Made by a program: the position numbers and the translations under genes
The notes under the pieces: generated by a model
What the model was told of the DNA's origin: nothing
What the model saw: the letters and a program-made list of their open reading frames with translations, nothing else
Databases searched by the model: none
Assembly (NCBI GenBank): GCA_029210625.1
Contig: JARGFU010000022.1
Span: forward strand, 1-64,000
Length of the DNA: 64,000 bases
Source: Deltaproteobacteria bacterium
GTDB taxonomy: Bacteria > Myxococcota > Myxococcia > SLRQ01
Direction: 5' to 3'
Part shown: positions 26,715 through 48,800 of the stretch, piece by piece
How the letters are laid out: each line of letters starts with the position of its first letter
Position numbering within the stretch: the stretch's first letter is position 1

Positions 26715-27185
26715 TCAGCGCCCGCGTTCGTGCCGGCGGTGACAGGAGAGGCAGAGGGCGTCGAACTCGTCCCGCAGGGCGCTCTGCCCCTTCCTCACCC
26801 GGTGCGGATCGTGGCAGCTGTGGCAGACCACGGCGTTGCCCTCCCCCAGGGGCCGGGGTGGCTCCATGATCCGCCGCTGGATGACGCCCACCGGGTGGCT
26901 GGCGTGCTCGAAGGTGTGGCAGCGGGTGCAGACCGCGATCGGATCGTCGAGGAGGGCCTTGTCCCGGATGGGGTGACAGGCCTGGCAGACCGGCTTGCCC
27001 TCGTAGGCGTGCGGGTCGATCAGGGCGTCGAGGATCTCGGGGTCGTAGGTGACGAAGCGCAACCCGCGGTACTGCGATGGGGTGAGCGTGCCGAGGTAGA
27101 GCATCACTCCGGCGCCCACCCCCAGCAGCGGCAGGAGCGCCCAGCCCAGCCACCGGGGCCCTTCGCTGCGAGCTGACCTCCCCAC
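26715..27185 (-). CDS. Membrane-anchored tetraheme cytochrome c
   Basis: About 156 aa from GTG 27185. One N-terminal helix (LGWALLPLLGVGAGVMLYLG) would anchor the protein in the inner membrane facing the periplasm. Four c-type heme motifs follow: CQACH, CTRCH, CHSCH and CLSCH. The pattern is like small quinol-linked tetraheme proteins. GTG 27185 is 7 nt after the radical SAM stop and gives the N-terminal helix a short positive start; no ATG fits. It is the last gene of the cytochrome block and probably passes electrons to the giant cytochromes (inference). Confidence 0.8.
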   Translation of the reverse strand: MGRSARSEGPRWLGWALLPLLGVGAGVMLYLGTLTPSQYRGLRFVTYDPEILDALIDPHAYEGKPVCQACHPIRDKALLDDPIAVCTRCHTFEHASHPVGVIQRRIMEPPRPLGEGNAVVCHSCHDPHRVRKGQSALRDEFDALCLSCHRRHERGR

Positions 27186-27192
27186 GCGGCCT

Positions 27193-28707
27193 TCAGCTCC
27201 CGCGCCCGTCGGGGAGACCGCCGTGGCCCGGCGCCGCGAGGTGAGCGTTCTCCCTCTCGAGCCCCTCGAGCATCTTGCGCACCCAGTCGGGCATCTCACC
27301 TCGCAGCCGGGCCATGTCGCCGGCCAGGTAGGAGTGGTTCATCAGGATGGCCGCGACCTTCACCAGGAACTCTCGCTTGAAGGCGGAGAGCTCCCCCAGG
27401 CGCACGAACTTGTCGGCGAAGAACTCGTGGGCCGCGCTCTTCAGGGCGCGGTGCATCTCCTCGAGGGTCATCGCCTCCGGCTTCACCACTGGCTCGACCA
27501 GGTTGAAGCGGGCGTAGTCGCGCACCTCGAGGTGGGGCTCGAGCTCCGGCCAGAGCTGGGTGTAGGGCCAGGGGGTGATCGCCAGGAAGAAGGCCATGTC
27601 GGGGCCGAAGTGCTTGGCCAGCTCGACGGTGGTCCGGATGCTCTCGGGCGTCTCGTCGGGGGTGCCCAGCACGAAGGAGGTCTCCGAGACGATGTCCGCC
27701 TGGTTGATCAGCTCGATGGCCCGCCGGCCCTGCTCGACGCTCGTGTCCTTCTGGTAGAGGTCCAGCGTGTCCTGCCGGGCGGCCTCCACCCCCACGTAGA
27801 TGTGGGAGATGCCGGCCTCCTTGTAGCGAGGGAGGAGCGCCTCGTCCCGGAGGATGTCGTCGACCCGGGTCTCGAGGAGCAGCTCGACCCCCACCTCACG
27901 CTCGATGAGCAGGTCGAGGATGCGGGCCCAGCGCTCGGGATCCACGGTGGGGGTCTCGTCGGCGAGCATCGCGATGTTCACGCCGAAGCGGTCCCGCAGC
28001 ATCTCCAGCTCGGCGACGAAGGCCTCGGCCCGCCGCGGGCGCCAGGAGAGCTCCCAGAAGAGGCGCTGCGAGCAGAAGGTGCAGGCCTGAGCGCAGCCCC
28101 GCGACGAGGAGACCACGGCCAGGGTCGAGCCGGCCTTGGGCCGGTAGGTGTAGGTGGGCCAGTCGACCAGGTCCCAGGCCGCCGGCAGCGCGTCCAGATC
28201 CGAGCTGAGCCGCCGGGTGCCGGTGGTGACGGGGTGACCCCCGTCCCGGTAGGCGATCCCCTGGACCTTTCGTGGGTGGTCCCCCGCGGCCAGGCAGTCG
28301 GCCAGTTCGGCGATCGTCACCTCGCCCTCTCCCCGGACCACGTAGTCGATCTCGGCGTGGAGGTTCAGGACCTCCTCCCACATGAAGGAGGCGTGGGTGT
28401 TGCCCAGGACGGTGATCAGCCCGGGGCGCGCCTCCTTGGCCCGGCGGCAGACCTCGACACAGGCGAGGTAGGAGGCGGTGATCCCCGTGAGGCCGACGAG
28501 GTCCGGGCGCTGGCGCTCGATCTCGGCCTGGATGGTCTCGTGGTCGTCGAAGCGGGCCATCGCGTCGTGGAGGACGACCTCGTGCCCCCGCTCCCGCAGC
28601 GCTCCGGCGAGCGTCACGAAGCCCAGGTTCATCCAGACCCCGGCGGACTCCACCACGCCCGAGTGGTAGGGGGGCGTGATCAACATGATCTTCAGACGCT
28701 TGTTCAA
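27193..28707 (-). CDS. B12-binding-type radical SAM protein
   Basis: A 504-aa protein. The N-terminal ~150 residues have the cobalamin-binding fold pattern (KIMLITPPY, ALRERGHEVVLHDAMA, GLTGITASY), though the DxHxxG motif is not obvious. The radical SAM domain contains CAQACTFC (about residues 204-211), the CxxxCxxC cluster motif, preceded by VVSSSRG. Later segments fit the same class (HIYVGVEAARQDTLDLY, FVLGTPDETPESI). The start is TTG 28707, giving MNKRLKIMLITPPY; ATG 28686 is the alternative. The reaction cannot be predicted. It lies between a giant cytochrome and a tetraheme cytochrome gene, so a modification of heme or of a surface molecule is conceivable. Confidence 0.85.
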   Translation of the reverse strand: MNKRLKIMLITPPYHSGVVESAGVWMNLGFVTLAGALRERGHEVVLHDAMARFDDHETIQAEIERQRPDLVGLTGITASYLACVEVCRRAKEARPGLITVLGNTHASFMWEEVLNLHAEIDYVVRGEGEVTIAELADCLAAGDHPRKVQGIAYRDGGHPVTTGTRRLSSDLDALPAAWDLVDWPTYTYRPKAGSTLAVVSSSRGCAQACTFCSQRLFWELSWRPRRAEAFVAELEMLRDRFGVNIAMLADETPTVDPERWARILDLLIEREVGVELLLETRVDDILRDEALLPRYKEAGISHIYVGVEAARQDTLDLYQKDTSVEQGRRAIELINQADIVSETSFVLGTPDETPESIRTTVELAKHFGPDMAFFLAITPWPYTQLWPELEPHLEVRDYARFNLVEPVVKPEAMTLEEMHRALKSAAHEFFADKFVRLGELSAFKREFLVKVAAILMNHSYLAGDMARLRGEMPDWVRKMLEGLERENAHLAAPGHGGLPDGRGS

Positions 28708-28799: not shown

Positions 28800-31700
28800 C
28801 TAGCCGCAGGAGCCGATCTGGTTGTGGCAGTCGTTCTCGCTCCAGCCGTTCGTCGGCCCCCAGTTGGCCATGTTCGAGTCGGACTGCATGCCGTAGTTCG
28901 AGGTCGGGTACTCGTAGGGCGCGCCGTCCTGATCGGTAGCGATCGGATAGGGCCGCTTCCAGCCGTGGGGCACCATGCCGTGACAGGCCGCACAGGGGCG
29001 GTTGTCGTGGCGTCGGCAGTGGAGGTTGCGGCCGCCGGCCTCCCGGAAGCCCGACGCGCTTCCGTTCTCGTTGGTACAGTTGGCGCCATAGACCGTCGGG
29101 CTGTGGCAGTTGAAGCAGAGGTGGCCGGTGACGTTCCCGGTGCGCCCGGTGTTCTGGTTCCAGAGGCCCTTGAGCAAGGGAGAGACATCCGAGCCGTGCG
29201 CGCCGGCCGGATCCGTCCCGCTGGCGCTCGCGTGGCAGTCGGTGCAGGCCATGCCCGAGGCGCCGTCCCAGGGGGCGACATAGGTGCCCAGGCCGGTGGC
29301 CTTCGAGGCGCCCCAGACCGCGTGGTAGCGCGGGTTGTTGGGGTTGAAGTCACGCCCCACGTCCTGACCGGTGTAGCCGGAGCGCGCCGGCGTGTGGCAC
29401 TTGAAGCAGAGGAAGGCCTGCCGGTCGGTGGCGGCGCCGGTGAGGGTCACGGGCTGGTAGTTGGACGGTGAGGTCCACACGCCGCCCACGGTCTGGGGCA
29501 CCCTGCCCTCGCTGCCGTAGAGGACCGCGCCCGGCAGGGAGCTCTCGAGGGGGGAGAGCCCGGTGGTGGCCACGTGCACCTCGTGGCAGCTGGTGCACTC
29601 CACCTCCCAGCCGGTCTGCTCGCTGTCCACGATCGGGTGGTGGCTGGCCCGCCCGAAGGGGGTGGTGAGGTTCGTGCTCGCCACGCTGCCGTCGTGGCAG
29701 CCGTAGCAGAGGTCCTCCTCCCGGTAGACGAGCATCGTGCCCGCCGCCGAGCCGTGGCGGTCGTGGCAGCTCTCGCAGTCCAGGCCCGCCACCGAGTGCT
29801 GGCAGGGGATGCTCCAGTAGCTGCTCTTGTCCGGGGGCGTCTGGCCCTGGAAGAAGGTGCCCGCCCCGCCGTCGTGGCAGGTGCGGCAGAGCCCGGAGAG
29901 GCCGGTGGCGGCGTAGGTGAAGCCGTCGGTGGGATCCGGATCGACGATGGCCACGGTGCCCGAGGCGTGGTTGCTCACGTCGTGGCACTCCTGGCAGCTC
30001 GCGCGGATGACGAGGTCGTCGCCGGTGCTCGCCGGATCGTGGTCGTGGCTGGTGTCGAGGGTGATCCCCGGCTCGTCATGGCACTCGTTGCAGCCGATGG
30101 TGGTGTCGGTCCAGGTGGCGACGTTGTTCAGCTCGGCGACGTCACCCGGCAGCGGATCGTGGCAGCCGACCCGGCAGGTCGGGTTGGCGCTGGCGGTGTG
30201 CGAGGGCGAAAGGCCGTTGGTCGGCGTCGTGCCTCCCGGGTAGACCGGCGTCGCCCCGAAGACGACGTCGACGTTCGCCTGCAGCACGGTGCCGCCGCCC
30301 TCGTCGTGGGTGGGGCCGCTGCCGTTGTGGCCGTGGCAGGTGGCGCACCCGAAGCCGAGGGTCGTGAAGTGCAGGTCGTGGGCGCCGCCGCCGCCGGCGT
30401 AGTCCTGCGAGCCGGGCAGCGGTGGGTAGGCGTGGCAGCTCTCGCAGAGGAGATCGACGGTGCCGTCCACGTGGGTCTGGGGGTCGACCGGCGTGGTGCC
30501 GGTGAAGGGATGGCAGCCGCTGCAGTCGGTCGGGGCGACGACCGGGTGCGGCCCCGGCGGCGCGACGCCGTGACAGGTGCCGCAGGCGTCCTGCGTGCCA
30601 TCGACGGTCGTCCAGGTGGGCGTCGTGTCGCTGCCGCCCCCGAGGGTGGCGCCGTGGCAGTAGTTGCTGCAGTCGCCGCCGCTGTAGCTGGGCGACGCGC
30701 CATCGGCGCTGGCCGTGGCGCCCCAGGTGGTCTCGGCCACTCCGTCACCGTCGATGTGGCCGGCGTCGGTGTAGGAGGCGGGGACGAGGTGACACTCGGT
30801 GCAGGCGATGTCCGCCCGCCAGCTCGTGCCGGTGACGAGGTGGGCCTGGTGGGCGCCGACCTGCGGATCGTTGGTGGCGCTGTCCCCCGCGGTGTCGACC
30901 GGCGGCGCGTCGCTGGTCGGGGAGCCGTGGCAGCTGTTGCAGCTCATCGGGGAGAGCTGCACGGTTCCGTCGACGTGCTGGGCCGGGGCCGAGAAGGTCT
31001 GGCCGGGCGCCGCGTCGGGGTGGCAGCTCTCGCAGTCGGTGCGGGCGACGTGCGGCGCGGCCGGCGGCGCTCCGTGGCAGGTGCCGCAGGCCGCCTGGGT
31101 GCCGTTCACCGTGGTCCAGATCGGGGTGGTGTTGGTGCCTCCGCTCATCAGGGTCTGGCCGTGGCAGTAGTTGTCGCAGGAGGCGCCGGTCCAGCCGGGG
31201 ATCGCCCCGTCGGCGGTGGGCACCGCGTCCCAGGTGAGCTCCGCCGGCAGCGGGGTGTCGAGGTGGCCCGCGTCGGTCCAGGCGGCCGGGACCAGGTGGC
31301 AGTCGCTGCAGGGGATGGTCCGGTGCCAGGCGCTGGCCCCCAGGTGGCTCTGGTGGGCGCCCACGCCGGTCAGGGTGGTCAGGGAGGCTCCGGTGGTGTT
31401 CACCGGAGGGGCGTCGTTCGCGGCCGAGCCGTGGCAGGTGTTGCAGAGCAGGGGCACGAGCTCGACGGTGCCGTTCACGTGCTGCACCGCATTGACGATG
31501 GTCTGGCCGGCGCCCGCGTCCGGGTGGCAGGTCTCGCAGTCGCTGCGGCCCACGTGGGGGAAGGCCGGGGGAAGGCCGTGGCAGGTGCCGCAGGCGTCCT
31601 GGCTGCCGTCGACCGTGGTCCAGACCGGCGTGGTGTTGGTACCCCCGCTGATCAGGGTCTGGCCGTGGCAGTAGTTGTCGCAAGAGGCGCCGGTCCAGCC

Positions 31701-34700
31701 CGGGATGGCGCCGTCGGCCTGCGGCAACGCGCCCCAGGAGAGCTCGGCGGGCAGGTCGGTGTCCATGTGGCCGGCGTCGGTGTAGGCCGTGGGCACCTGA
31801 TGGCAGGCGTCGCAGGCGATCGGGGCGCGCCAGGTGCTGCTGCCGAGGTGGCTCTGGTGCGCACCGACCCCGGTGTCGGAGGTCAGGGTGTCCCCGGCGG
31901 TGTCGACCGGGGGCGCGTCGCTGCTCGCCGAGCCGTGGCAGGTGTTGCAGAGGAGCGGCACCAGCTGCACCGTGCCGTCCACGTGCTGCGCCGGCGTGGA
32001 GAAGGTGAGCCCGGCGGCGGCGTCCGGGTGGCAGCTCTGGCAGTCGCCGCGATCGACGTGGGGGTAGTCCGGGGGCAGGCCGTGGCAGGTGCCGCAGGCG
32101 GCCTGCGTGCCGTTCACCGTGGTCCACACGGGGGTCGTGTCCGTGCCGCCGGTCATCAGGGTCTGGCCGTGGCAGTAGTTGTCGCAGGAGCCCGCGGCCC
32201 AGGTGGCCGTGGCGCCATCACCGGTGGGCAGCGCGCCCCAGGTGAGCTCGGCCGGCAGCGGCGTGTCCATGTGGCCCGGGTCGGTCCAGGCCGAGGGGAC
32301 GAGGTGGCAGTCGGTGCAGATCACCGGGCGGTGCCAGGTGCTGGAGCCCAGGTGGCTCTGGTGAGCCCCGACGCCGGTGTCGGTGGTGAGGACGTCACCC
32401 GCGGTGTCCACCGGCGGGGCGTCACTCGTCGCCGAGCCATGGCAGGTGTTGCAGAGGAGCGGCACCAGATCGACGTCGCCGTCTACGTGCTGGGTCGAGT
32501 CCGTGATCGTCAGCCCGGGGCCCGCGTCCGGGTGACAGCTCGCGCAGTCGGGGTTCGTCGGGTGGTTCCCGCCCGGGGGCAGGCCGTGGCAGGTGCCGCA
32601 GGCGGCCTGGCTGCCATCGACCGTGGTCCAGTCGGGGGTCGTGTCCGAGCCGCCCCCGTCGGTGAGGGTCTGGCCGTGGCAGTAGTTGTCGCAGGTGCCG
32701 CCGGCGTAGCTCGGCGTCGCGCCATCGGCGCCGGCGGTCGTGCCCCAGGTGAGCTCGGCCGGCAGATCGGAGTCGATGTGACCGGCGTCGGTGTAGACCG
32801 CGGGGACCAGGTGGCACTCCTCGCAGGCGATGTCGGCCCGCCAGGCGCTGCCCGTGAGGTGGCTCTCGTGGGCGCCCACGCCGGGATCGGTGGTCACGGT
32901 CGCGCCACCGGTGTCCACCGGCGGGGCATCGCTGGTGGCGTCGCCGTGGCAGGTGTTACAGGCCAGCGGCACGAGATCGACGGTGCCATCGACGTGCTGG
33001 GCCGGCGCCGAGAAGGTCTGGCCGGGCGCGGCGTCGGGGTGGCAGCTCTCGCAGTCGCTGCGATCGACGTGCGGGAAGGCCGGGGGCAGGCCGTGGCAGG
33101 TGCCACAGGCGGCCTGGCTGCCGTCGACGGTGGTCCAGGCGGGCGTGGTGTTGGTGCCGCCCGTCAGGAGCGTCTGGCCATGGCAGTAGTTGTCGCAGGA
33201 GCCGGCGGCCCAGGTCGCGGTGGCGCCGTCGGCGGTGGGCACCGCGGCCCAGCTGAGCTCCGCCGGCAGCGGCGTGTCGACGTGGCCCGCGTCGGTCCAG
33301 GCCGCGGGGACCAGGTGGCAGTCGGCGCAGGGGATGGTGCGGTGCCAGGTGCTGGCGCCGAGGTGGCTCTGGTGGGCGCCGACGCTCGAGAGGGTGGTGG
33401 CGCTGGCGCCGCTGGTGTCCACCGGCGGCGCGTTGCTGGTCGCCGAGCCGTGGCAGGTGTTGCAGGCGAGCGGGACGAGCTGCACGGTGCCGTCCACGTG
33501 CTGGGCCGGCGCCGAGAAGGTCTGGCCGGGCGCGGCGTCGGGGTGGCAGCTCTCGCAGTCGCTGCGGGCGACGTGCGGGAAGGCCGGGGGCAGGCCGTGG
33601 CAAGTGCCGCAGGCGGCCTGGCTGCCGTCCACGGTGGTCCAGGCGGGCGTGGTGTTGGTGCCGCCGCCGAGGAGGGTCTGGCCGTGGCAGTAGTTGTCGC
33701 AGGAGCCGGCGGCCCAGGTGGCGGTGGCGCCGTCGGCGGTGGGCAAGGCGGCCCAGGTGAGCTCGGCGGGCAGCGGCGTGTCGATGTGGCCGGGGTCGGT
33801 GTACACGCCGGGGAGCAGGTGACAGTCGGTGCAGGGGATGGTGCGGTGCCAGGTGCTGGCGCCGAGGTGGCTCTGGTGAGCGCCGACACCGGAGAGGGTG
33901 GTCGCGCTGCCGTTGGTGGTGTCCACCGGCGGCGCGTTGCTGGTCGCCGAGCCGTGGCAGGAGTTGCAGGCGAAGCCGATGAGATCGACCGTGCCGTCCA
34001 CGTGGCTGGCCGGGTCGGTGAAGGTCATGCCCGGGCCGGCGTCGGGGTGACAGGCCTCGCAGTCGCTGCGGTTGGCGTGGGGGAAGGGCGGCGGGGTGCC
34101 GTGGCAGCTGCCGCAGGCGGCCTGGCTGCCGTCGACGGTGGTCCAGGTGGGCGTGGTCTCGCTGCCGCCGCCCAGGGTCTCACCGTGGCAGTAGTTGGTG
34201 CAGTCGCCGCCGGCGTAGGTGGGGCTCGCGCCGTCGGCGGTGGCCGTGCTGCCCCAGACGGTCTCGGCGGGCAGGGCCGAGTCGAGGTGGCCGGCGTCGT
34301 CGTAGGCCGCCGGGACGAGGTGACACTCCTCGCAGGCGATGGGGGCGTGCCAGGAGGTGTCGCCATCGACGTGGCTCTGGTGGGCCCCCACGCCCGGGTC
34401 GGTGGTGGCGGTGTTGCCGTTGGTGTCCGAGGGCGGGGCGTCGTTGGTCGCCGAGCCGTGGCAGGAGTTGCAGGAGAGGCTCAGGTCGACCACACCGTCG
34501 ATGTGGCTGGCCGGCGCGTCGGGGGTGGTGCCGGTGAAGGGGTGACAGCCCGAGCAGTCGGCGGGGTCGACCGCCGGGTGGGGCCCGGCCGGGGGCAGGC
34601 CGTGGCAGGTGCCGCAGGCGGCCTGGCTGCCGTCCACCGTGGTCCAGGCGGGGGTGGTGTCGCTGCCGCCGGTCAGGAGGGTCTGGCCATGGCAGTAGTT

Positions 34701-37700
34701 GTCACACGAGCCGGCCGCCCAGGTGGCGGTGGCGCCGTCGGCCGCGGCCAGGGCGCCCCAGGTCAGCTCCGCCGGCAGCGGGGTGTCCACGTGGCCGGCG
34801 TCGGTCCAGGCCGTGGGGACCTGATGGCAGTCGGCGCAGACCACCTCGCGATGCCAGCCGCTGGCGCCCAGGTGGCTCTGGTGGGCGCCCACCCCGGTGT
34901 CGCTGGTCACCGTGTCGCCCGCGGCGTCGACCGGCGGGGCGTCGCTCGAGGCCGAGCCATGGCAGGTGTTGCAGGCCAGGGGCACGAGCTGCACGGTCCC
35001 GTCCACGTGCTCGGAGGGCGTCGAGAAGGTCTGGCCGGCCGCGGCGTCGGGGTGACAGCTCTCGCAGTCGGTGCGCGGGACGTGGGGGTAGGCCGGAGGC
35101 AGACCGTGGCAGTTGCCGCAGGCGGCCTGGCTGCCATCGACGGTGGTCCAGACCGGCGTCGTGTCGGCGCCGCCGGCGATCAGGGTCTGGCCGTGGCAGT
35201 AGTTGTCGCAGGAGCCCCCGGAGTAGGTCGGCGTGGCGCCGTCGTTGACCGGGAGGGTGCCCCAGGTCAGCTCCGCCGGCAGGGGCGTGTCGAGGTGGCC
35301 GACGTCGGTCCAGGCCGCCGGGACCTGATGGCAGTCGGAGCAGACCAGCCTCCGGTGCCAGCTGTTGGTCCCGAGGTGGCTCTGGTGGGCCCCGACGCCC
35401 GCGTGGGTGGTGAGCGCGTCGCCGCCCGTGTCGACCGGCGGCGCGTTGCTGGTCGCGGAGCCGTGGCAGGTGTTACAGGCCAGCGGCACCAGATCGACGA
35501 TGCCGTCGACGTGCTGCGCCGGAGCCGAGAAGCTCAGGCCGGCGGCGGCGTCCGGGTGGCAGGTCTCGCAGTCGCTGCGGGCGACATGGGGGAAGGCCGG
35601 GGGCAGGCCGTGGCAGGTGCCGCAAGCTGCCTGGCTGCCATCGACGGTCGTCCAGCTCGGGGTGGTCTCGCTGCCGCCGGCGATCAGGGTCTGGCCGTGG
35701 CAGTAGGTGTCGCAGCTGCCGGCCACGAAGGTCGGGACCGAGCCGTCGGCCAGGGCCACGGCGCCCCAGGTCAGCTCGGCGGGGAGCGGGGTGTCGGTGT
35801 GGCCGACGTCCCCGACGGCCGCCGGGACGAGGTGGCAGTCGTCGCAGCCGACGGCCCGGTGCCAGGAGGTGTCACCCGCGACGTGGCTCTGGTGGGCCCC
35901 GACGCCGGGCGCGCTCGTCGCCAGGTTGCCCAGGGTGTCCTGGGGCGGCGCGTCGTTGGTCGCCGAGCCGTGGCAGGAGTTGCAGGAGAGGGTCAGCTGG
36001 ACGAGCCCGTCGATGTGCGTGGCGGGATCGTCGGGGGTGGTGCCGGTGAAGGGATGGCAGCCCGAGCAGTCGGTGGCGGCGACCGCCGGGTGGGGCCCCG
36101 CCGGAGGCAGCCCGTGGCAGGTGCCGCAGGCGGCCTGCGTGCCGTCCACGGTGGTCCAGTCGGGGGTCGTGTCGCTGCCGCCCGAGAGGAGGGTCTGGCC
36201 GTGGCAGTAGTTGTCGCAGGAGCCCCCGATGAAGGTCGGAGCGGCGCCGTCGGCCAGGGGCAGGCCTCCCCAGGTGAGCTCCGCGGGCAGCGGCGTGTCG
36301 ACGTGGCCCGGATCCGTCCACTGGAGGGGCACCCGGTGGCAGGCGTCGCACTGCACCTCGCGGTGCCAGGAGCTGGTGCCGAGGTGACTCTGGTGAGCGC
36401 CCACGCTCGTCAGCGCGGTGCTGGCGTTGCCGGTGGTGTCCACCGGCGGGGCGTCGCTGGTGGCGCCGCCGTGGCAGGTGTTGCACTGCAGCGGCACGAG
36501 GTCGACGACGCCATCGACGTGGCGATCCGGCTCCAGGAAGCTGAACCCCGCGCCGATGTCCGGGTGGCAGCTCTGGCAGTCGAAGCGCGCGGGATGGGGG
36601 TAGGCCGGCGGCAGCCCGTGGCAGGTGCCGCAGCTGGCCTGGCTGCCATCGACGGTGGTCCAGACGGGGGTCGTCTCACTCCCACCGGGCAGGAGAGTCT
36701 GACCGTGGCAGTAGTTGTCACAGGAGCCGGCGGTGAAGGTCGGCGCCGCCGCGTCGGCCAGGGGCACGGCGCCCCAGGTCAGCTCGGCGGGCAGCGGGGT
36801 GTCGATGTGGCCGGGGGAGTCCAGGGCGGCCGGGTAGAGGTGGCAGTCGGTGCACTTGAGGTCCCGGTGCCAGCCCGATCCGGCGGCCAGGTGGGAGGCG
36901 TGGGCGCCCACGCCGCGCAGGGAGGTGTCGACGCCGCCGGTGGTGTCGGCGGGCGGAGCCGGGCCGGTGGCGGGATCACCATGGCAGCTGGTGCAGCCCA
37001 GGGGGCCGAGGTCGACGGTTCCGTCCACGTGGCGCTGGGGCTCGAGGAAGGTGAGGCCATCGGTGTCGATCGTGGGGTGGCAGCGGGAGCAGTCGGTGTC
37101 GACCGGGTGTGGCGCCTGAGGTGGCAGCGCGTGGCAGGTGCCGCAGGCCGCCTGGCTTCCGTCGACGGTGGTCCACTCCGGGGTGGTGTTGGTGCCGCCG
37201 GGGTGGAGGGTGACCCCGTGGCAGTAGACGCCGTCGCAGCGGAGCCGATCCCAGACCGGGCTGGCCCCATCGGCGAGGGGCACGCCCCCCCAGGTCAGCT
37301 CGGCGGGCCTCGGGGTGTCGATGTGGCCGACGTCTCCCACGGCGATCGGGACCAGGTGGCAGTCCTCGCAGACCACGTCGCGGTGCCAGTCCGAGCCCTC
37401 GACCAGGTGGCTGCGGTGGGCGCCCACCTCGGTCGCGCTCGTCAGGGAGCCGCCCCGCAGGTCCAGGGGGGGAGCGCCGCTCTCCTCGTCGCCGTGACAG
37501 AGGACGGCGCAGCTGAGCTCCGTCACGCCGCCATCGGTGCCGCCGCCATCGGTGCCGCCGCCATCGGTGCCGCCACCATCGGTGCCGCCACCATCGGTGC
37601 CGCCACCATCGGTGCCGCCGCCGTCGGTGCCGCCGCCGTCGGTGCCGCCGCCGTCGGTGTCGCCGCCGTCGGTGCCGCCACCATCGGTGCCGCCGCCGTC

Positions 37701-37820
37701 GGTGTTGCCGCCGTCGGTACCGGCGTCGGGTAGGCGGCCCCCGGGGTCGGAACACTCGCAACCGGCGAAGGACAGAACCAGACAGACACCGAGAATCAGC
37801 TCGCGCGATAGTGCTCGCAA
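28800..37820 (-). CDS. Giant multiheme c-type cytochrome lipoprotein (about 83 heme motifs)
   Basis: About 3,006 aa from TTG 37820. That start has a strong ribosome site (GGAGGGGAG, 5 nt spacer) and gives a 20-residue lipoprotein signal peptide ending SFAGC. Then come 13 TDGG tether units, 14 repeats of ~168 residues with five heme motifs each (CGTCH, CESCH, CNTCH, CADCH and CDNYCH types), and a distinct C-terminal region with further motifs. I count 67 CxxCH, 15 CxxxCH and one CxxxxCH, resembling the Geobacter CxxxxCH...CxxCH family. An outer-membrane electron conduit is the likely role. The last ~205 residues are shared with the other giant. Neighbouring ResB/CcsA genes would supply heme ligation. 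A longer open frame starts at TTG 37880 without a ribosome site. Confidence 0.9.
30540..37330 (-). repeat. Fourteen tandem repeats of about 505 bp inside the giant cytochrome gene
   Basis: The segment coding for the NYCHG-type heme motif recurs near 30655, 31150, 31660, 32165, 32675, 33180, 33680, 34190, 34690, 35195, 35695, 36200, 36705 and 37215 (mean spacing about 505 bp). Units differ at many synonymous and some non-synonymous positions, so the array is old rather than freshly expanded. It could cause collapse or expansion in assembly. Confidence 0.85.
37527..37727 (-). repeat. 15-bp repeat coding for TDGG tether
   Basis: Thirteen near-identical 15-bp units (GGCACCGATGGCGGC type on the minus strand) code for GTDGG repeats just after the lipobox of the giant cytochrome. 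They form a flexible acidic spacer. Confidence 0.8.
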
Positions 37821-37914
37821 GAACGCTCCCCTCCGCGCCGCAGGGAGTGCACGAACCGAACCAGCGCTCAGCTCCGCCAAGCCCTTGAAATCTGGAACCT
37901 TGACCGCCTTCCGA

Positions 37915-38008: not shown

Positions 38009-38833
38009 TCAGTCCACCATGAACTCGGTGTGGACCGTCGCCGCCACCCGGGAGATGACGAAGAAGGCGAAGACGGAGAGGCCGAGGAGGAAGAGGATAG
38101 CCCAGGCGGAGGCCTTGCCCTTCACCCGCCAGGTGATCCGGACGTGGAGGAAGAGGCCGTAGGCGATCCAGGTCGCCAGGGCCCAGGTCTCGATGGGGTC
38201 CCAGTCCCAGTAGCGCCCCCAGGCCTCCTGGGCCCAGAGGGCGCCCGCGGCGACCATGAAGGTCACGGCGATGAAGCCGAAGGCGACGAGCCGGTAGCCC
38301 AGGTCGTCGAGGCCGGCGAGCGCCGCACCGAGCTCGGGATCCTGCGCGCCGCGGCCGCGGCGTTCACGCACGAGGTACGCGAAGGCCACCGCCGACGCGA
38401 CCAGGATCGATCCGTAGGCGACCTTGGCGAAGCCGATGTGGATCATCAGCCAGACGCTCTCGAAGGTGGCCGGCAGAGGCTCGACCTCGGGGCTCGAGAG
38501 CACGCCCCAGCCCAGCAGCAGGACCGAGAGGCCGAGCACCGGCCCGGCGGCCAGGCGCAGCGACTCTCGGCGCCAGAGCAGCGCGACCAGGATCGCCACC
38601 CCCACCCAGACGCTGGAGGAGAGCACCTCCAGGACGTTGATGTAGGGGCCGTGGCCGACCCTCACCCAGCGCAGGACGATGGAGAGGCCGAGGAGCGCGA
38701 GGCCCAGCGCGGCGGTCGAGAGCACCACCTGGCCGGGGCGCTTGCCCCCCCAGATCAGGGCGGCCCAGCCGGCGAGGGAGCCGAGGGCCAGGGCGATGGT
38801 CCCTGCCCAGAGCAGACCGATCTCGAGGCTCAC
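38009..38833 (-). CDS. ccsA: CcsA/ResC-type cytochrome c biogenesis protein
   Basis: Heme-handling half of the System II cytochrome c maturation synthase, an inner-membrane protein that exports heme and presents it for attachment to CxxCH. 274 aa with about eight hydrophobic helices. The Trp-rich periplasmic motif is intact: [20 protein letters not shown]. His residues sit in flanking segments ([32 protein letters not shown]). GTG 38833 has AAGGAG upstream and overlaps the resB-like stop (GTGA). It lies between the two giant cytochrome genes. Confidence 0.92.
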
Positions 38834-39837
38834 GCCGGGCTCCTTCCCTTCTTCCTTCCGCGCATCGTCCAGAGGTAGTGCCAGAGGAGGAAGAAGGGCA
38901 AGGCTGCGAGCAGGGTCACCACCACCGGCCAGACCGGATCGTAGGGGGCCGAGAGGCGGGCGTAGGTGGGCAGCGCCTCGAGGCGCAGGGTGCCCAGAGG
39001 CAGCTCGAGCGCCTGCCCCACCGCCAGCCGCCAGGGCTCGGTCGCACCGGGGAGGATCAGCGCGACGCGAGCCTCGGGGGGGGCCTCGAGCCGCCACCGC
39101 TCCCCCTCGCCCCGCAGGTCGGGCAGCTCGAGCTCGGCGGAGATGGCGCCGCTTCCTCCCGGCAGGTTCAGCACCTGCACCTGCTCGAGGGGTTTTCTCC
39201 GGTACTCGGGGAAGGTGATCGCCCCCTGGCTGCGAGCGCCCGAGGGCGTGGTCAGGGAGAAGAGGGCGGCGAAGCCGGCGTTGGGCCAGAGGGAGTAGCG
39301 CACCCCGCTCACGCTCACCCCCTGCCCCGGTCGCAGGACGATGGAGCGGACCGCCCCACCCTCCTCGTTCACCTGCAGCCGGGCCTCGGCCGCGAGCTGA
39401 GTGCCGCTGCGGTGGTACTCGACCTGGTAGCGCTCGAGGCGCACCCCCGCCTCCTGGAGCCAGCCGGGCGCCAGGGGCCCCCGGCTCCGCACGGTGGCGG
39501 CCAGACCCCGCTCTTGCCCCTCGATGAGGAGGAGCTCGCACTCCTGATGGACGAGGCGTCCGGCGCCGGCCACGCCGCAGAGTCCGATGAGGGCCAGGTG
39601 GAAGCCCAGGAGGCCGGGCTTGCGCAGGAAGCCCTTCCAGCGCCGCGCCACCGTGGCCACGAGGTTGAGGGCCAGGGCGAAGAGCAGGGCAACCCTGGGC
39701 CACTCGCTCTCGACGAGCTCCTGGGCGCCAAGGACGAGGATGACCATGAGGACGAGCAGCAGCCCGGCCGTGAGCCGGAGCGAGGCCAGGCCCGCGAGGC
39801 CCCGACGCCACCCACGCCCCGCCCGAGCGGCCCTCAT
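38830..39837 (-). CDS. resB: ResB-like cytochrome c biogenesis protein
   Basis: Partner of CcsA in System II heme ligation. 335 aa, a short ResB-type protein: N-terminal membrane helices (LRLTAGLLLVLMVILVLGAQE and FHLALIGLCGVAGAGRLV), a large periplasmic beta-rich domain (about residues 105-300) with SGVRYSLWPNAGFAALF, and a last helix (VVVTLLAALPFFLLWHYLWTM) before a basic tail. ATG 39837 is 10 nt after the giant fusion gene stop, with AGGGGAG as ribosome site. The stop overlaps the ccsA start. The thiol-reducing partners (ResA, CcdA) are not in the window. Confidence 0.88.
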   Translation of the reverse strand: MRAARAGRGWRRGLAGLASLRLTAGLLLVLMVILVLGAQELVESEWPRVALLFALALNLVATVARRWKGFLRKPGLLGFHLALIGLCGVAGAGRLVHQECELLLIEGQERGLAATVRSRGPLAPGWLQEAGVRLERYQVEYHRSGTQLAAEARLQVNEEGGAVRSIVLRPGQGVSVSGVRYSLWPNAGFAALFSLTTPSGARSQGAITFPEYRRKPLEQVQVLNLPGGSGAISAELELPDLRGEGERWRLEAPPEARVALILPGATEPWRLAVGQALELPLGTLRLEALPTYARLSAPYDPVWPVVVTLLAALPFFLLWHYLWTMRGRKKGRSPA

Positions 39838-39847
39838 GGGCTCTCCC

Positions 39848-42800
39848 CTAGCCGCAAGTTCCAATGTCGTTGTGGCAGTCGCTCTCGGACCAGCTGCCAC
39901 TCGGTCCCCAGTTGGCCATGTTGCTGTCGGTCGCAAATCCGTAGCCGGTGGTCGGCCTGCGGTAGGGCAGCGGATCGGTGTCGACCACGATCGGGTAGGG
40001 CCGCTGCCAGCCGTGGGGGATCATCCCGTGGCACCCCGAGCACGCCACGTTCCCCCCGTGCCGCCGGCAGTGCAGGTTGTCGCCGCCGGCCACCCGGAAG
40101 CCGGTGGCGGTCGAGTTCTGGCTGCAGTTGTTCCCACCGTAGACGCTCGGATCGTGGCAGCGGTGACAGAAGTTGTTGGCGGTGGTCCCGCCGGTGTTCT
40201 GATCCCAGACCCCCCCCACGAGCATGTAGTTCACCCCCGAACCGTGGGGGCCCTTGTCGCTCGCCGCATCATCGGTGTTGTGGCAGTCCGAACAGGTGAT
40301 CTCGGCCCCGGCGGACCAGCCGCCCACGAAGGAGCCCGTGGTCATCGTGCTGTCCCGGGTGACGGCGTGCATCCGCTGGTTGTTCGGGTTGAAGTCGAGG
40401 GCCAGGTTGGTGCGCAGGCCGCCCGAGAGGGTGTCGCCGGGCGCTCCGGTGCCCCAGGCCCAGTCGGAGTGGCACTTGAAGCAGATCTGCCACTCGGCGG
40501 TGACCGGATCGATCACGGAGTAGGCGGTACCCGCCGGCTCGGTCCAGGCCCCCAGGCCGCTCCAGTCGACGTCGACCCCGCTGACCCCCTGGAGGGGGCT
40601 GTCGCCTCCGAGGGTGCGGGTGCCCTGGGAGTGGAGGGTCGCGCCGGCCTCGTGGACGTCGTGGCAGTCCTGGCAGGCCACGTGCCGGTTCGCCCCGAAG
40701 TAGGTGCCGTCGCCGAAGGCGGCCGAGGCCTCGGCGATGCTGTCGTGGACCGTGTCCGAGAGGACCGGGTGGGCCCTGGTGTCGGCGAGAGGTGTCTGGA
40801 TGTCCTTGCCGGCGCCGGTGCCATGGCACTCGAAGCAGAGGAAGCTCGCCGCCGCGTTGTTGCCGATGGGGCTGCCGTGGAGGAGCGAATCGTAGCGGGA
40901 GTAGTGCACCGCCGCGAAGGGCAGGCCGCTCTCGGTGGGCGAGCTGTCGTCGGGATCGGCGTGGCACTTCGTGCAGTTGCGGCCGAAGCTCGAGCCGTCG
41001 TGGAAGTTGTAATAGCCCGTGACGTAGTCGTGGGCGCTGCTGGCGTAGGAGAGGGCCGAGATGGCCGGGTGCAGCTCACCGCCGATGGTCACCGGGTATT
41101 GGTGGCAGGAGGTGCAGCCGCCGCCGGTCGAGAGGGCCCCGTCGAAGTCGGTGGCCATGGCCGGGTCGGTGGCGGTGCGGCTCGCCGCGGTGCGGGCGTC
41201 CTCGTAGAGGTTGTTCTCGTGGGTGGTCAGGACTCCCTCGGTGTGGGGGTGGTCGTTGTGGCACATGTTGGTGCAGCTGCGCGCCGCAGGCGCGACCGAG
41301 TCCAGGGGGTTGGCCCAGGTGGCGTCGGGGCTGGCGGGATCGAAGCTGTCGTTGACCAGCGTGACGTTCCCGATGGCGTGGCGGCTGACGATGGTCGCCC
41401 CGCCCAGGGTCGTGGTGGTCGCGCCGTTCATCCGCACCCAGAGATCGTTGTGGCAGCCGTTGCACTCGACGCCGCCCTCCGACTCGCCGGCGGCGAAGCC
41501 TCCGGAGTGGCCGTGGCAGCTCACGCACTTGGTCGTGTAGTGCCCCGCGGTGCCCGGGGTGCTGTCCGAGTTCCGGAACTGCGGAGTGCCTCCCACGTTC
41601 TGGGTCTGGGTGTGGCAGACCTCGCAGGGGCCGGTGCCGGTGCCCGTGGCCAGGCCGTAGGGCTCTACCCCGGTCGTCATCAGCCGGAAGTCCACGGCCT
41701 TCGCGCCGCTGTTCGGGGTCTGGATGGTCTCGTTGACCAGGTAGATGTTCCGGCTGCCGTGGGGGTCGTGGCAGGTGCGGCAGGTGAAGGTCGTACCCCA
41801 GGTGCCGTAGTCGGTGGAGGTGTTGTCGCTGTTGTGGACCTTGAGGGCGTGGCAGCCGGTGCAGAGCGAATCGTCGTTGTCCCGCCGCAGGAGGTTCCCG
41901 TCGCCGGCGCCGATGGTGATCGGGCCGTCGTAGGTGACGCTGCTGGAGTCGGCGTAGTGCGGTCCGTGACAGGAGAGGCAGGTGACGTTCCCGGTGGTGT
42001 ACGAGCCGCCGCCGCTGGCCAGGACGATGTTGTTGGTGATGTTGCCGTCGGAGTCGACCTCGAAGGTGTCTCCCTTCAAGGGCGCGCTCGAGAGGGCGGT
42101 CCCCCAGGTGATCCGGGTCGCGGTGGAGGAGGTGATCTGCCGGTACTGATTCACGTTCGCGCCGCTGGTGAAGCGCACGAAGCTTCCCGTCAGGTCGGGC
42201 CAGGCCTGGGCCGCGTGGTCCAGGTAGGTCGGCGAGGGGCTGTCGCTGGCGACCGCCCCCTTGATGTAGGGCAGCTGGACGTCGAAGACGGTGTCGCCGT
42301 CGGCGTCGGCGTCGAGGGGCCGGGACCAGAAGTTCTGCGTCCGGCAGGGGCCGGCGCCGCAAGGATCGCCCAGGACGCACAAGCCGTCCGAGGGGAAGTA
42401 GCCGGCGCCGATGTCGCACTCGTCGCAGTTGGGTCCGGTGTAGCCCGTCTGGCAGGAGCAGACCGGCGCCGGGGTCAGGTCGCAGACCCCGCAGCTCGTG
42501 CCGTAGTACTGCCCGACGCAGTCGCAGATGGGCTGCTCGTTCTCGTCGACGTAGCAGGTCCCTCCGTTGAGGCAGGTGACCCCGGTGCAGGGGTTCGTGG
42601 CGCGGCACTCCCCGTTGCGGGCCTGGTAGCCGCTGGCGCACGCATCGCAGTTCGGGCCGGCGTAGCCCGCCGGGCACTGGCAGTAGTAGTTGCCCACGGG
42701 GGTGCACTGGGAGCAGGTCGCCCCGAACCACTGGCCGGTGCAGTCGCAGACCGCGCTGTCGTTCTGGTCGACGTAGCAGGTGCCCCCGTGCTCGCAGACC

Positions 42801-45800
42801 ACGCCGCTGCAGGGATCGGTGTTCACGCAGACCCCGTTGCGCAGGGTGTAGCCGGTGTCGCACTGATCGCAGGCGGCCCCGGTGTAGCCGGTGTCGCAGG
42901 TGCAGCTGTAGCCGCCGGGCACGTACTGGTTCGGACCCCAGTTCTGGCAGGTCCCTCCGGTGAAGGCGGCGTCACCTCCGCAGGTGTCGGACTCCGCCGG
43001 GACGTAGCCGGTGTTCGTCGTGAACATGATGCCGTCGAAGCCCGGCCGCTCCTGGCCGCCCTCCCCGTTGTTCACCGAGATCGTGCAGGAGAGGACGTGC
43101 CCCCCCCGATCGAGCTGGATGGCGCCGTTGGCGTTCGCGGCCGCCCAGCACCAGCGCTCGGTGAAGCCCAGGCCGGTGCAGCCCGTGCCATAGGTGCCGG
43201 CGTTCATCCCGTCCTTGGTGAGGCTGAACGCCAGCGTCCCCACGCCCGTGACGCCGGTGAGGGTGCAGTCGTAGTCCTCACCGGGCTCGATGCTGTCGTC
43301 GCCCGAGACTCGCATCCAGAGCTTGAAGCTGGTGCCGTCGGGGGACTGGGTGGTGAAGGTCTGGGTGAGGGTGATCGTCTCGGTGCCCTGGCCCTGCTGG
43401 GTGTCCAGGCTGCAGTCGGTGCCGATGGCGCCGGCGAGGTTGATCTCGTCGCCGACGCAGGAGCTCGAGACGCAGGGCTGCCCCGCCCCCTGCGCCGCGT
43501 TGTTGGCGCAGACCTGGACCTCGGTGCCGGCGGCCGGGCCACTGCAGTCGCCGTAGCCACAGCGCTGGGGCGTGCCGGTGCAGGTCAGCGCCGAGCAGGT
43601 GGCGCCTCCGCCCCCGCCCCCGGTGAAGCCCGCGGAGCAGGTGCCGCAGTCGCCTCCGGTGAAGCCCATGGGGCAGTCGCAGTCGATCTCGTCGAGGTTC
43701 GGGGTGTCCTGGCAGGCCCCGGACACGCCGTTGCAGGAGCTGGCCAGGCAGTCCTCGTCCGGGATGCAGACCTTGTCGCTGTCCCGGTGGTGCTCTCCAG
43801 CGACGCACTCGACGGTCTCGCAAGCGAGGGGTGAGCAGCCGGTGCAGTCGAGGCCGAACCACTGGCCGACGCAGTCGCAGACCGGGTTGTCCCCGGCGTC
43901 GACGAAGCAGGTGCCGCCGTTCTGGCAGGTCACGCCGCTGCAGGGATCGGTGTTCACGCAGACGCCGTTGCGCATGATGTAGCCGGCGTCGCACTGATCG
44001 CAGGCGGCGCCGGTGTAGCCGGTGTCGCAGGTGCAGGAGGGCGTGCCCGGGTCGTAGACGTTCGGTCCCCAGTTCTGGCAGGTCCCGGCGGTGAAGGCCG
44101 CGTCACCCCCGCAGGTGTTGGTGTCGTTGGGCGTCTTGGCGGTGTCGGTGGTGAAGAAGATGCCGTCGAAGCCGGCGAACTCGTTGACGTCGCTGCCGGT
44201 GATGGTGCAGGAGAGGGTGTGGGAGCCCTGCTGGAGCTGGACCGTCCCGGCGGCGCTCGGCGCCGCCGCCCAGCACCACTGCTCGGTGAAGTTGATATCG
44301 GTGCAGGCGGTCCCGTGGGTGCCGGCGCCGAGGGAGGCCTCGGAGAAGGTGAAGGAGAGGGTCCCCGAGCCGGTGACCCCGGAGAGCGTGCAGCGGTACT
44401 CCTCGGTGCCCCCGTCCCAGCTCGCGTCGGCGGCGATCCGCATCCAGAGGCGGAAGGCGGTGCCGTCGATCGACTGGGTGGTGAAGGTCTGGGAGAAGGT
44501 CAGGGTGTAGGTCCCGACGTCGGAGCAGTCGGTGCCGATGGCGCCCCCCACGGTGGTGCCGTCGCTCACGCAGGAGGTCGAGACGCAGGGCTGCCCGGCG
44601 CCCTGGTTCGCGTTGTTCGAGCAGGCCTGCTCCTCGATCGCCACCCCGCTGCCGACGCAGTCACCGAAGCCGCAGCGGTTGCCCGCCGTCACGCAGGCGT
44701 CGGCGGTGCAGGCTGCTCCCCCGCCGCCTCCCCCGGAGAAGCCCGTCACGCAGGTCGTGCAGACCTGGTCCGCGAAGCCGAGGGGGCAGTCACAGTAGTA
44801 CTCGTCGCCGTTGGGGGTGGCCTGACAGGCGCCGCTCACGTCCCCGCAGGCGCCGACTCCGCAGGCGGTGTCGGGGACGCAGACCGCATCGACGTCCCGG
44901 TGGTGCTCTCCCCCGGGGCAGTCGCTCAGGTTGCAGTCGGCGGTGAGGGTCGCGCAGGTGCCGGCGCCACAGGCGGCCCCCTGGGCGCTGCAGGTGTCGC
45001 CGACGCAGGTCCCGGCGGTGAGGGTGTACCCCGGCGAGCAGCCCGCGCAGGCCGGATCGGCGAAGCCCACCGGGCAGTCGCAGACGATCTCGTCGCCGCT
45101 GGGGTTGGTCTTGCAGGCGCCCAGGACGCTGTTGCAGCTGGTCGGCACACAGCTCTCGTCGGCGATGCAGGTGCCGTCGAGATCGGCGTGGTGGTTCGTG
45201 GGCAGGCAGGCGCTCGTCGAGCAGCCCGGGGGGTTGGAGATGCCGCAGGTGCCGAAGCCGCAGGCTGCGGCGTCGACCAGGCAGGCCTCGGCGGCGCAGG
45301 GCGTCCCCGAGAAGCCGCTGGCGCAGACCGAACAGCCGCTCCCCGAGGCGCCCACCGGGCAGGAGCCCGGCAGGGGGACGTTCACCGGGTGGGAGAGCGC
45401 GGCGCCGGTCCAGGTGCCGTGGCCGGCATCCTGGAGATCGCGAACCTGGTGACAGTTCAGGCACATCTGCCCGTAGGCGTTCTCGGAGCGGAGGAAGTGC
45501 CTGCCGGCAAAGCCCGCGGTGGCCGGCGCCCGGGCGTCGGCCGGGCGCTTCGCCTGGAGGTGCTGATCGTGACAGGTCGAGCACATCAGGGTCGCTCCCC
45601 CCTCGAGCCGGATTGCCATCTCGGGGTCGGTGGGGAAGTTCGCCGCCAGGGTCGGATTGTCCACCGCCGCGTCCCAGCGGTGGGAGGTGCCCGCCGTGCC
45701 GGGGGTCGCCTGATCCCCCAGCGAGAGGGGGAAGGCGTTGGTGTCGTGGCAGGAGAGGCAGAGGTTCACGTTGCCGCTCACGCTGGTCAGGGTGAGCCCC

Positions 45801-48800
45801 GCTGACTGGTGCCCGACGTGGCAGGCGGCGCAGCCCGAGGGGATCTCGCCGATGCCGTGAGGGGGATCGGTGGCCGCCGCCGGCCCGGCCAGGCTCCCGG
45901 CCAGGAGGAGCGCGAAGAGCCGCACGCCGGCCCGGCGCCGGGGGAGCGCCAGGAGCGCCAGGACGAGGAGCGCGAGGAGCGGCCCCCCACCCTCCCCGCT
46001 CTGCTGGCAGCCGCAGCCGGCCTGGGGATCGACCGGCGGCGTGCCGCCGTCCGCGCCGCCATCGACGGCCGGGCCCCCGTCGGGCTCGCCGCCACCGTCG
46101 GTGGAGCCACCGTCGACGCCACCGTCGGGATCGGTCCCGCCGTCCGGGGTGAGCCCGGGCACCTCGGTGGCAGAGGGGAAGACCTCGCTGCCGACGAAGA
46201 TGGGCGGCACCTCCTCGGGCGGCACCTCCAGCTCGACCAGGGCGGAGCGCCCGAGGTAGCGGCCGTCGTCGGCGGTCAGGCCGAAGCGATAGAGGCCCGG
46301 CAGCTCGGGAGCGAAGGTGGCGAGGGTCGAGCTGCGGCCGCCCAGGGCGGCCCGGGGCCCGTTGACCTGGTACCAGAGGTAGCCGGGACGATCGGCGCCG
46401 TTCGCGTCGAAGCTGCGCGTGCCGTCCAGGGTGATCGTGTCACCGATGCGACCCTCACCGGCCGAGGCCAGCACGATCGGCACCTGGGCGCCGAGAGGAT
46501 CGTGGATCGAGCCCGCGAGCTCGACCGCCGGCCCCACCAGCCGTCCGTCGTCGGCCTGGACCGCGAAGCGGTAGTGACCCACGGCGAGGGGGAAGAAGCG
46601 CACCCGCGCCGGATCGAGGCGCTCGAGGAAGACCGTGGCCCCCCCCAGCTGTTCGAAGAGGCAGGTGATGGCCTGACCGTCGGCGTCGAGGTCGGCCCCG
46701 CAGTCCAGGGTGACCGGCTTGAGGAGGTTCCCACCGAAGGTCGGCTCCGGGCTGATCCGGGGCAGGCTGTCCCCGGGCTCGTCGATCATCACCAGGACCT
46801 CCGCCGGGAGACCCTCGCCCGCCGGGTCGAAGGCCCCGAGGCGGAAGCGGTAGACGCCCGCCTCGGGCGCCGTGAAGGTGGCGACGCCCGGGGTGGGGCG
46901 CTGCAGGCTGACCACGGGGCCCTCCAGCTGATCCCAGTTCAGCGCCAGGACGTCGCCGTCGGGATCGACGCTGCCGCTTCCGTCGAGGATCACCTCTTCG
47001 CCCACGAGGGCGGCGATCCGCTCCGGCGCCACGGCCGTGGGGAGGCGAGCACCGGGACCATCGACGCGGAGCGTGGTCCGCCCGGTGGCCGAGAGGCCGT
47101 CGGCGTCGGTGACCTCCACCTCGAAGACGTAGGTGCCATTGATCGCTGGGGTCAGGGTCACCTCGGCGATGCGCGGATCGTTCAGGGCGACGGCGGGGCC
47201 GCCCAGCTGGCTCCAGCGGAAGCTCAAGGGGTCGCCGTTCGCGTCGTGGGAGAAGGCCGCCGAGAGGGTGACCGCCTCGCCGACCATGGCGTCGACGATC
47301 GGCCGCAGGTCCGGAGAGGGCGGCAGGTTCATCACCTCGATCTCGGTGACGACCTCGGGGAGGGTCGCGCTCGCGTCGGAGACCGTGAGCCCGAAGTGGT
47401 AGATGCCCGCTCGCCGCAGCGCCACGTGGTCCTTGCGCTCCTCGAGGAGCTCCACGGGCTCGGGACCGTCGATCTGTCGCCAGAGCAGCGTGAGGGGCTC
47501 GTTGGTGGGATCCCCGAGGCTCGTCGGCTGGAGCCGCAGGTAGCGGGGAGGCGTCGTCACGACCGGCTCCACGCTCACCCAGGGGAGCTGGTCGCTGGCG
47601 TCGTTCGGGTTCCGCCCGGCGTGCAGCTCCTGCCCGTCCGGCACCCCGTCCCCGTCGCCGTCGGGGTCGAAGGGGTCGGTTCCATTGAAGTACTCGTCCA
47701 GGTTGGCGAGGCCGTCGCCGTCGGGATCCGCCCAGGCATCCCGCGCGTCGTTGGGGTCCGTCCCGTTCAGCACCTCCCAGCCGTCGGGGAGACCGTCGCA
47801 GTCGGCGTCCCCGGCGCAGAGGATGGGCTGCACCCCGGTGGGGGGGAGGTAGGTCACGACCCGGCCGTTGCCGGCATCGGCGATCCAGATCCGGCCCGAG
47901 GGACCGACGGCGACGTCCTGGGGCGAGTGGAGCAACCCGCTGACGTGGCCGTGCCCCCCGATGGTCCCGAGGAAGGTCCCGTCACTGGCGAAGTCGACCA
48001 GGACGCTCTGGAAGGCATCGACGATGAGCCGCTCACCGTCGGCCTGCCGCAGGTTCCCCGCCGGCCGGACCAGCTCGCCCGGGTTGGAGCCCTGGACACC
48101 GAAGGTCCCGAGGACGAAGCCCTGGTCGTCGACCTCGAGCAGCACGCTGTAGCGCGTCTCGGAGAGCCAGACGTGCCCGTTGGTCTGGTCGACACCCGCG
48201 GCGATCGGGCGGTAGCCCGAGGGCAGCAGGCGCCTCCAGAGGCGCAGCCCGCTTGAGGCGTAGCGGGAGACCCGGGGGGGCGTCGACTCGAGGGCGAGGA
48301 GATCGCCGCCCGGGAGCCCCACCAGATCCAGGGCGCCGGAGAGCTCTCCCGCCCCCTGCCCCGCGGCCTGGACCACCCCTCCGCTCGCGTCGAGGCGGTA
48401 GAGCCACCCGCCCTCGCTATCGGCGACCCAGACTCCGCCATCGGACGTCGGCACGAGGCCGGTGGGGACCCCGCGGGCCGCGAGCACGGCGGCCAACGCT
48501 CCGCTCTCGGTGTAGCGGACGATCTGGCGGCGGCGGGGATCGGACGCCCAGACGCCCCCGGTGGGGACGTCGATGATCCGGTTGGGGAAGAAGGTGATCG
48601 ATCCCGCCGGCACCGGCAGGGAGGCGCCGAAGATCGCGGACGCCACCTCGACCTCGACGGTGCGCTCGGAGGTGACCCCCAGCGTGTCGCTCACGACCAC
48701 CGTGACCTCCTGGGCCCCGAGGACGACCGGCGCGGTCCAGGTGACCCGCTCGGGATCGGCGTCGGCCTCTCCGGTGATCGTGCCGGCCGAGGCGCTCCAG

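Follow-up and report, generated by a model that had tools for sequence, protein, structure and literature searches.

The best-studied long heme chains of bacteria are polymers of small cytochromes, and in the Geobacter filament cytochrome OmcS the heme spacing is about 0.8 nm per heme. Large multiheme proteins have also been described. A 40-heme protein was published for Anaeromyxobacter dehalogenans 2CP-C (PMC2330069), a giant ANME-2c protein carries 86 motifs (PMC9012536), and a Paludibaculum protein carries 112, and Saprospiraceae have many large proteins of this kind (PMC11495043). In the window, that is, the whole 64,000-nucleotide stretch of a Myxococcia bacterium analysed here, a minus-strand gene encodes a predicted cytochrome with 83 heme c motifs. 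By description, not by sequence, this protein can be likened to the ANME-2c and Paludibaculum/Saprospiraceae giants, which have a comparable heme number and a probable extracellular electron role; unlike it, the ANME-2c giant bears an S-layer domain. The unusual size claimed for it in an earlier sequence-only reading holds against typical cytochromes but is not exceptional, given the two larger published counts, which also rule out 83 as a record, and relatives with 80 to 83 motifs. The features of the locus are as follows.

26715..27299, minus strand: predicted membrane-anchored tetraheme cytochrome (four CxxCH, a hydrophobic segment, paired_CXXCH TIGR01905)
27193..28707, minus strand: predicted B12-binding radical SAM protein, BchE-like, with intact CxxxCxxC (PF02310, PF04055; TIGR02026 378.7 bits)
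28800..37820, minus strand: giant cytochrome gene, 83 heme c motifs (motif count; TIGR01904 312 bits in 14 stretches; GC3 0.95)
28803..30446, minus strand: C-terminal 548-aa domain with 13 heme motifs (motif count, partner alignment)
30447..37511, minus strand: 14 pentaheme repeats, from R1 (residues 124-295) to R14 (residues 2314-2478) (motif spacing, His conservation)
37512..37757, minus strand: mature N-terminus up to the first heme motif, with a Thr-Asp-Gly-Gly tandem linker (sequence, TRF)
37758..37820, minus strand: putative lipoprotein signal peptide with lipobox FAGC at its end (sequence; similar lipoboxes in most large homologs)
38009..38863, minus strand: predicted CcsA/CcsB-type heme lyase, System II (PF01578 E 2.5e-28; TIGR03144 145.6 bits, under the cut-off of 187.6)
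38830..39936, minus strand: predicted ResB-like protein of System II cytochrome c maturation (Pfam PF05140 E 4.6e-7)
39848..49345, minus strand: partner protein, 3,165 aa, 19 heme motifs (domain matches, motif count)

The cytochrome frame (28800-37880, minus strand) is stop-free over 9 kb. A regular-expression count returned 67 CxxCH, 15 CxxxCH and 1 CxxxxCH motif in it, or 83 distinct CH sites, figures identical to those that the sequence-only reading had given. Composition shuffles of the protein yielded a mean of 1.8 motifs and a maximum of 8, and 166 of its 174 cysteines sit in heme motifs. The likely start is TTG 37820 with AGGGGAG ahead of it, and the resulting 3,006-aa product is the one proposed in that reading; the most upstream start, TTG 37880, from which residue numbers are counted here, would give 3,026 aa. 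Likewise, the lipoprotein signal and the TDGG tether that were said to precede the first heme are both present, the linker being encoded by 13.1 copies of a 15-bp unit at 37526-37722 (TRF). The signal peptide, as judged by eye, ends in a lipobox cysteine, and lipobox-like signals are found in most homologs with at least 30 motifs, so the product is predicted to be a bacterial lipoprotein. With motifs far above chance and this signal, it classifies by sequence as a c-type multiheme cytochrome. An antisense frame of 2,719 aa (29574-37733, plus strand) was rejected as a real gene, since it is the minus strand that has the GC3 of 0.95, the TIGR01904 matches and the homologs; we attribute this frame to high GC combined with in-frame repetition.

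Residues 124 to 2478 consist of 14 complete pentaheme repeats of 165 to 172 aa (about 168), which account for 70 motifs, while the remaining 13 all lie within the C-terminal 548 aa. Thus, the 14 repeats of five described earlier are confirmed and so are extra motifs at the C-terminal end, but there are none at the N-terminal end, where extras had also been claimed. The repeats are 52 to 90% identical in protein sequence. Heme 2 and heme 3 are 44 residues apart in every one of them, and heme 4 and heme 5 are 18 residues apart except in three repeats, where the distance is 20. At the third heme, repeats 2 to 14 have a CxxxCH motif and repeat 1 has the single CxxxxCH; the other two CxxxCH motifs are located in repeat 1 and in the C-terminal tail, and motifs of this type may not all carry heme. 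In addition to its five motif histidines, each repeat has exactly five non-motif histidines that are invariant in 14/14 repeats (contexts GAHxxH, GH, PH or NH, and HVDG/HIDG-type), and a sixth (WH) is variable. When 107 three-repeat segments were aligned, 106 of which come from other genomes, these ten histidines again showed complete or nearly complete conservation. This 5:5 match fits bis-His ligation of all five hemes, without proving it, and we infer that the hemes of each repeat are coordinated in this way.

By its curated cut-off, NCBIfam TIGR01904 places the protein among the CxxxxCH/CxxCH domain cytochromes (312.5 bits over 14 stretches versus a cut-off of 27). The TIGR01904/PF09698 (GSu_C4xC__C2xCH) cytochromes are named after Geobacter sulfurreducens; the likeness consists in the 14 TIGR01904 stretches, whereas here a fixed pentaheme repeat recurs 14 times and the third heme is CxxxCH, not CxxxxCH, in 13 of them. 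All 14 repeats and the 107 segments fall by sequence within what we define as a Myxococcota pentaheme-module family. A repeat profile search of named genomes retrieved 75 loci, mostly from Myxococcota or unclassified Deltaproteobacteria, with weaker matches in KSB1 and Ignavibacteria-like MAGs, and the profile matches 52 of the 147 genomes of the window's class. Relatives with 58 to 83 motifs occur in several Myxococcota, 83 being the largest number reached, and at least three further, smaller members are encoded in the same genome (contigs C1, C2 and C16). The family is widespread and apparently unstudied. In Anaeromyxobacter sp. PSR-1, a 1,344-aa protein with 40 motifs (L057) belongs to it, and the module recurs in 1,343- to 1,344-aa proteins from three related genomes; judging from the heme number, this type of protein probably corresponds to the published 2CP-C gene. 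These proteins share the module of the giant cytochrome, but they are half its size and its 13-heme tail was not detected in them. On a 150-repeat tree, most repeats sit closest to others of their own protein, as do 12 of the 14 examined here, a pattern that points to tandem expansion of modules within lineages. With one or two blocks in the smallest relatives and about 15 in the largest, the family offers natural variation in the length of a single module array and would allow heme-chain length to be compared with conduction or storage with all else fixed.

The neighboring genes on the same strand are, in order, the partner gene, the ResB-like gene, ccsA, the 83-heme gene, the B12/radical SAM gene and the membrane tetraheme gene. 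The ResB-like and CcsA genes lie directly upstream of the giant cytochrome gene and, with PF05140 and PF01578 over their cut-offs and TIGR03144 below, are predicted to form a System II cytochrome c maturation pair. The genome carries seven Cytochrom_C_asm matches, of which the adjoining CcsA is one. The tetraheme gene overlaps the radical SAM gene, and its true start is uncertain. Further along, the putative product of 24236-25351 (minus strand) would be exported and weakly matches models for a MIDAS-family adhesin and for the gliding lipoprotein CglD.

We modeled three repeats (531 aa, 107 sequences), with a mean pLDDT of 79.4, a pTM of 0.61 and little regular secondary structure, as is common in multiheme cytochromes. 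Foldseek, which is weak on folds of this kind, found no match for the model in the PDB, and phmmer and hmmsearch detected no PDB relative by sequence. The C-terminal domain, with 12 sequences, was modeled at a pLDDT of 31. Thus, these searches of the PDB revealed no similarity to solved filament cytochromes that would mark an OmcS-like polymerizing nanowire. A continuous heme chain may be shared with OmcS, OmcE and OmcZ, but those cytochromes polymerize small subunits, whereas the giant cytochrome would be one covalent chain. As for the outer-membrane-anchored heme wire envisaged in the sequence-only reading, the lipobox, TIGR01904, the adjoining System II pair and the 5:5 ratio of hemes to spare histidines make a lipid-anchored giant multiheme cytochrome well supported; the lipobox is the one feature that points to the outer membrane, and a wire is a plausible possibility.

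Tandem repeats are a known hazard of assembly and this genome is a draft in 64 contigs, so that collapse or false expansion could in principle account for the repeat number, an error that the earlier reading had itself named as a threat to its count. Nonetheless, the longest exact DNA repeat inside the gene is 70 to 71 bp, shorter than ordinary short reads; most repeats are only 65 to 84% identical in DNA; and the 9 kb contain neither a stop nor a frameshift. Moreover, large arrays of the same module, with 80, 81 and 83 motifs, are present in independent assemblies, and the single-contig genome G018 encodes family proteins with 58, 51 and 44 motifs. Collapse was therefore rejected, and an assembly error of either kind is largely refuted and highly improbable.

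The protein is probably a giant lipoprotein cytochrome of the outer surface, or of the periplasmic face of the outer membrane, built from a tandem-amplified pentaheme module and serving as a modular electron conduit or store. The sequence shows the motifs, the repeat layout, the conserved histidines, the lipobox, the family assignment and the gene neighborhood; we infer that heme occupies the motifs, where the protein sits, that the chain is unbroken, which way electrons run and to what partner. In this explanation, one pentaheme module would have been amplified in tandem to give a protein that is exported by Sec and lipidated at Cys41. System II would attach the hemes, with the adjoining ResB/CcsA pair as a plausible candidate for this role, giving five bis-His c hemes per module. 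The 14 modules and the 13-heme terminal domain could then provide an unbroken route for electrons, kept at a distance from the membrane by the flexible TDGG linker. Periplasmic cytochromes, such as the tetraheme protein encoded in this cluster, might supply the electrons, which might be stored or handed to a partner protein or an acceptor outside the cell. A protein that is mainly a capacitor, letting substrate oxidation continue without an acceptor while directional conduction is secondary, is a less likely but reasonable possibility. Storage has been proposed as the role of the 40-heme A. dehalogenans protein (PMC2330069) and of giant heme proteins from sludge (PMC11495043), and the Anaeromyxobacter protein L057 has the same module. 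Capacity alone requires neither strict spacing nor exact 5:5 histidine conservation, yet both are compatible with it, and storage and conduction are not mutually exclusive. We consider it rather unlikely that the protein is periplasmic, bridging the periplasm from the inner leaflet of the outer membrane or from the inner membrane without reaching outside. A search of the genome (G000) for the MtrB/PioB porin (PF11854) gave no match, so no MtrCAB-type porin-cytochrome conduit was found there, a result that also counts against the surface reading; a lipobox does not tell the membrane face; and the seven Cytochrom_C_asm matches point toward a large general c-type cytochrome effort. On the other hand, known heme spacing implies that 83 hemes in a line would greatly exceed the width of the periplasm.

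The partner protein combines NHL, TSP3 and PKD domains, an internal MYXO-CTERM signal, a second signal peptide, an EGF-like Cys-rich region, the 19 heme motifs and a C-terminal domain; over its last ~300 aa, it shares 40% identity with the end of the 83-heme protein. At about 45881-46015, a MYXO-CTERM-like signal (a Cys-containing stretch, a hydrophobic segment and an Arg cluster) closes the NHL/PKD region, and the same frame continues into a second signal-peptide-like segment, which is followed by the 19-heme region. The identical fused order occurs in G157 (two genes, L112 and L128) and G192 (L122), indicating that the fusion is not a one-off missing stop, elsewhere the genes are split, and in G111, G068 and G016 the heme part appears to start with its own signal peptide. 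The partner may be exported as a polyprotein that myxosortase and signal peptidase cleave. A second PKD/NHL gene beside a multiheme gene is located on contig C39 of the same genome (L226, 1020-5593), with a further Cytochrom_C_asm match nearby at C39:6469-6969.

The most unexpected part of the locus is the neighborhood formed by System II and the BchE-like gene. The radical SAM protein scored below the equivalog cut-off of TIGR02026 (481.35) and is described as BchE-like, not assigned as BchE. Many Myxococcota retain a BchE-like B12/radical SAM gene in the vicinity of CcsA and multiheme genes. We compared the surroundings of close orthologs (46 to 58% identity) with those of distant paralogs (about 33 to 43% identity), a boundary set after the scores were seen. 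Up to 10 kb was viewed on each side where the contig allowed, with unequal flank lengths, and the ortholog counts exclude the window's own ortholog and loci on very short contigs. A CcsA relative was found within 10 kb in 11/14 ortholog loci versus 0/14 paralog loci (Fisher p about 3e-5), and a CcsA or multiheme gene was nearby in 13/14 versus 4/14 (p about 0.001); the genomes are related, and both p values overstate independence. This conserved neighborhood raises the question of heme or protein modification in giant cytochromes. It is conceivable, though doubtful, that the BchE-like enzyme, CcsA/ResB and the small tetraheme protein constitute a dedicated maturation cassette that alters heme c or the polypeptide of the cytochrome family; if so, the giant arrays would contain either a modified residue or a heme of non-standard type. 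Our literature search found no paper tying a BchE-like enzyme to multiheme cytochromes. Elsewhere in the same genome, a distant radical SAM/B12 paralog with 41% identity (L209, contig C7, 8971-12996) lies about 730 bp from a gene with 9 heme motifs.
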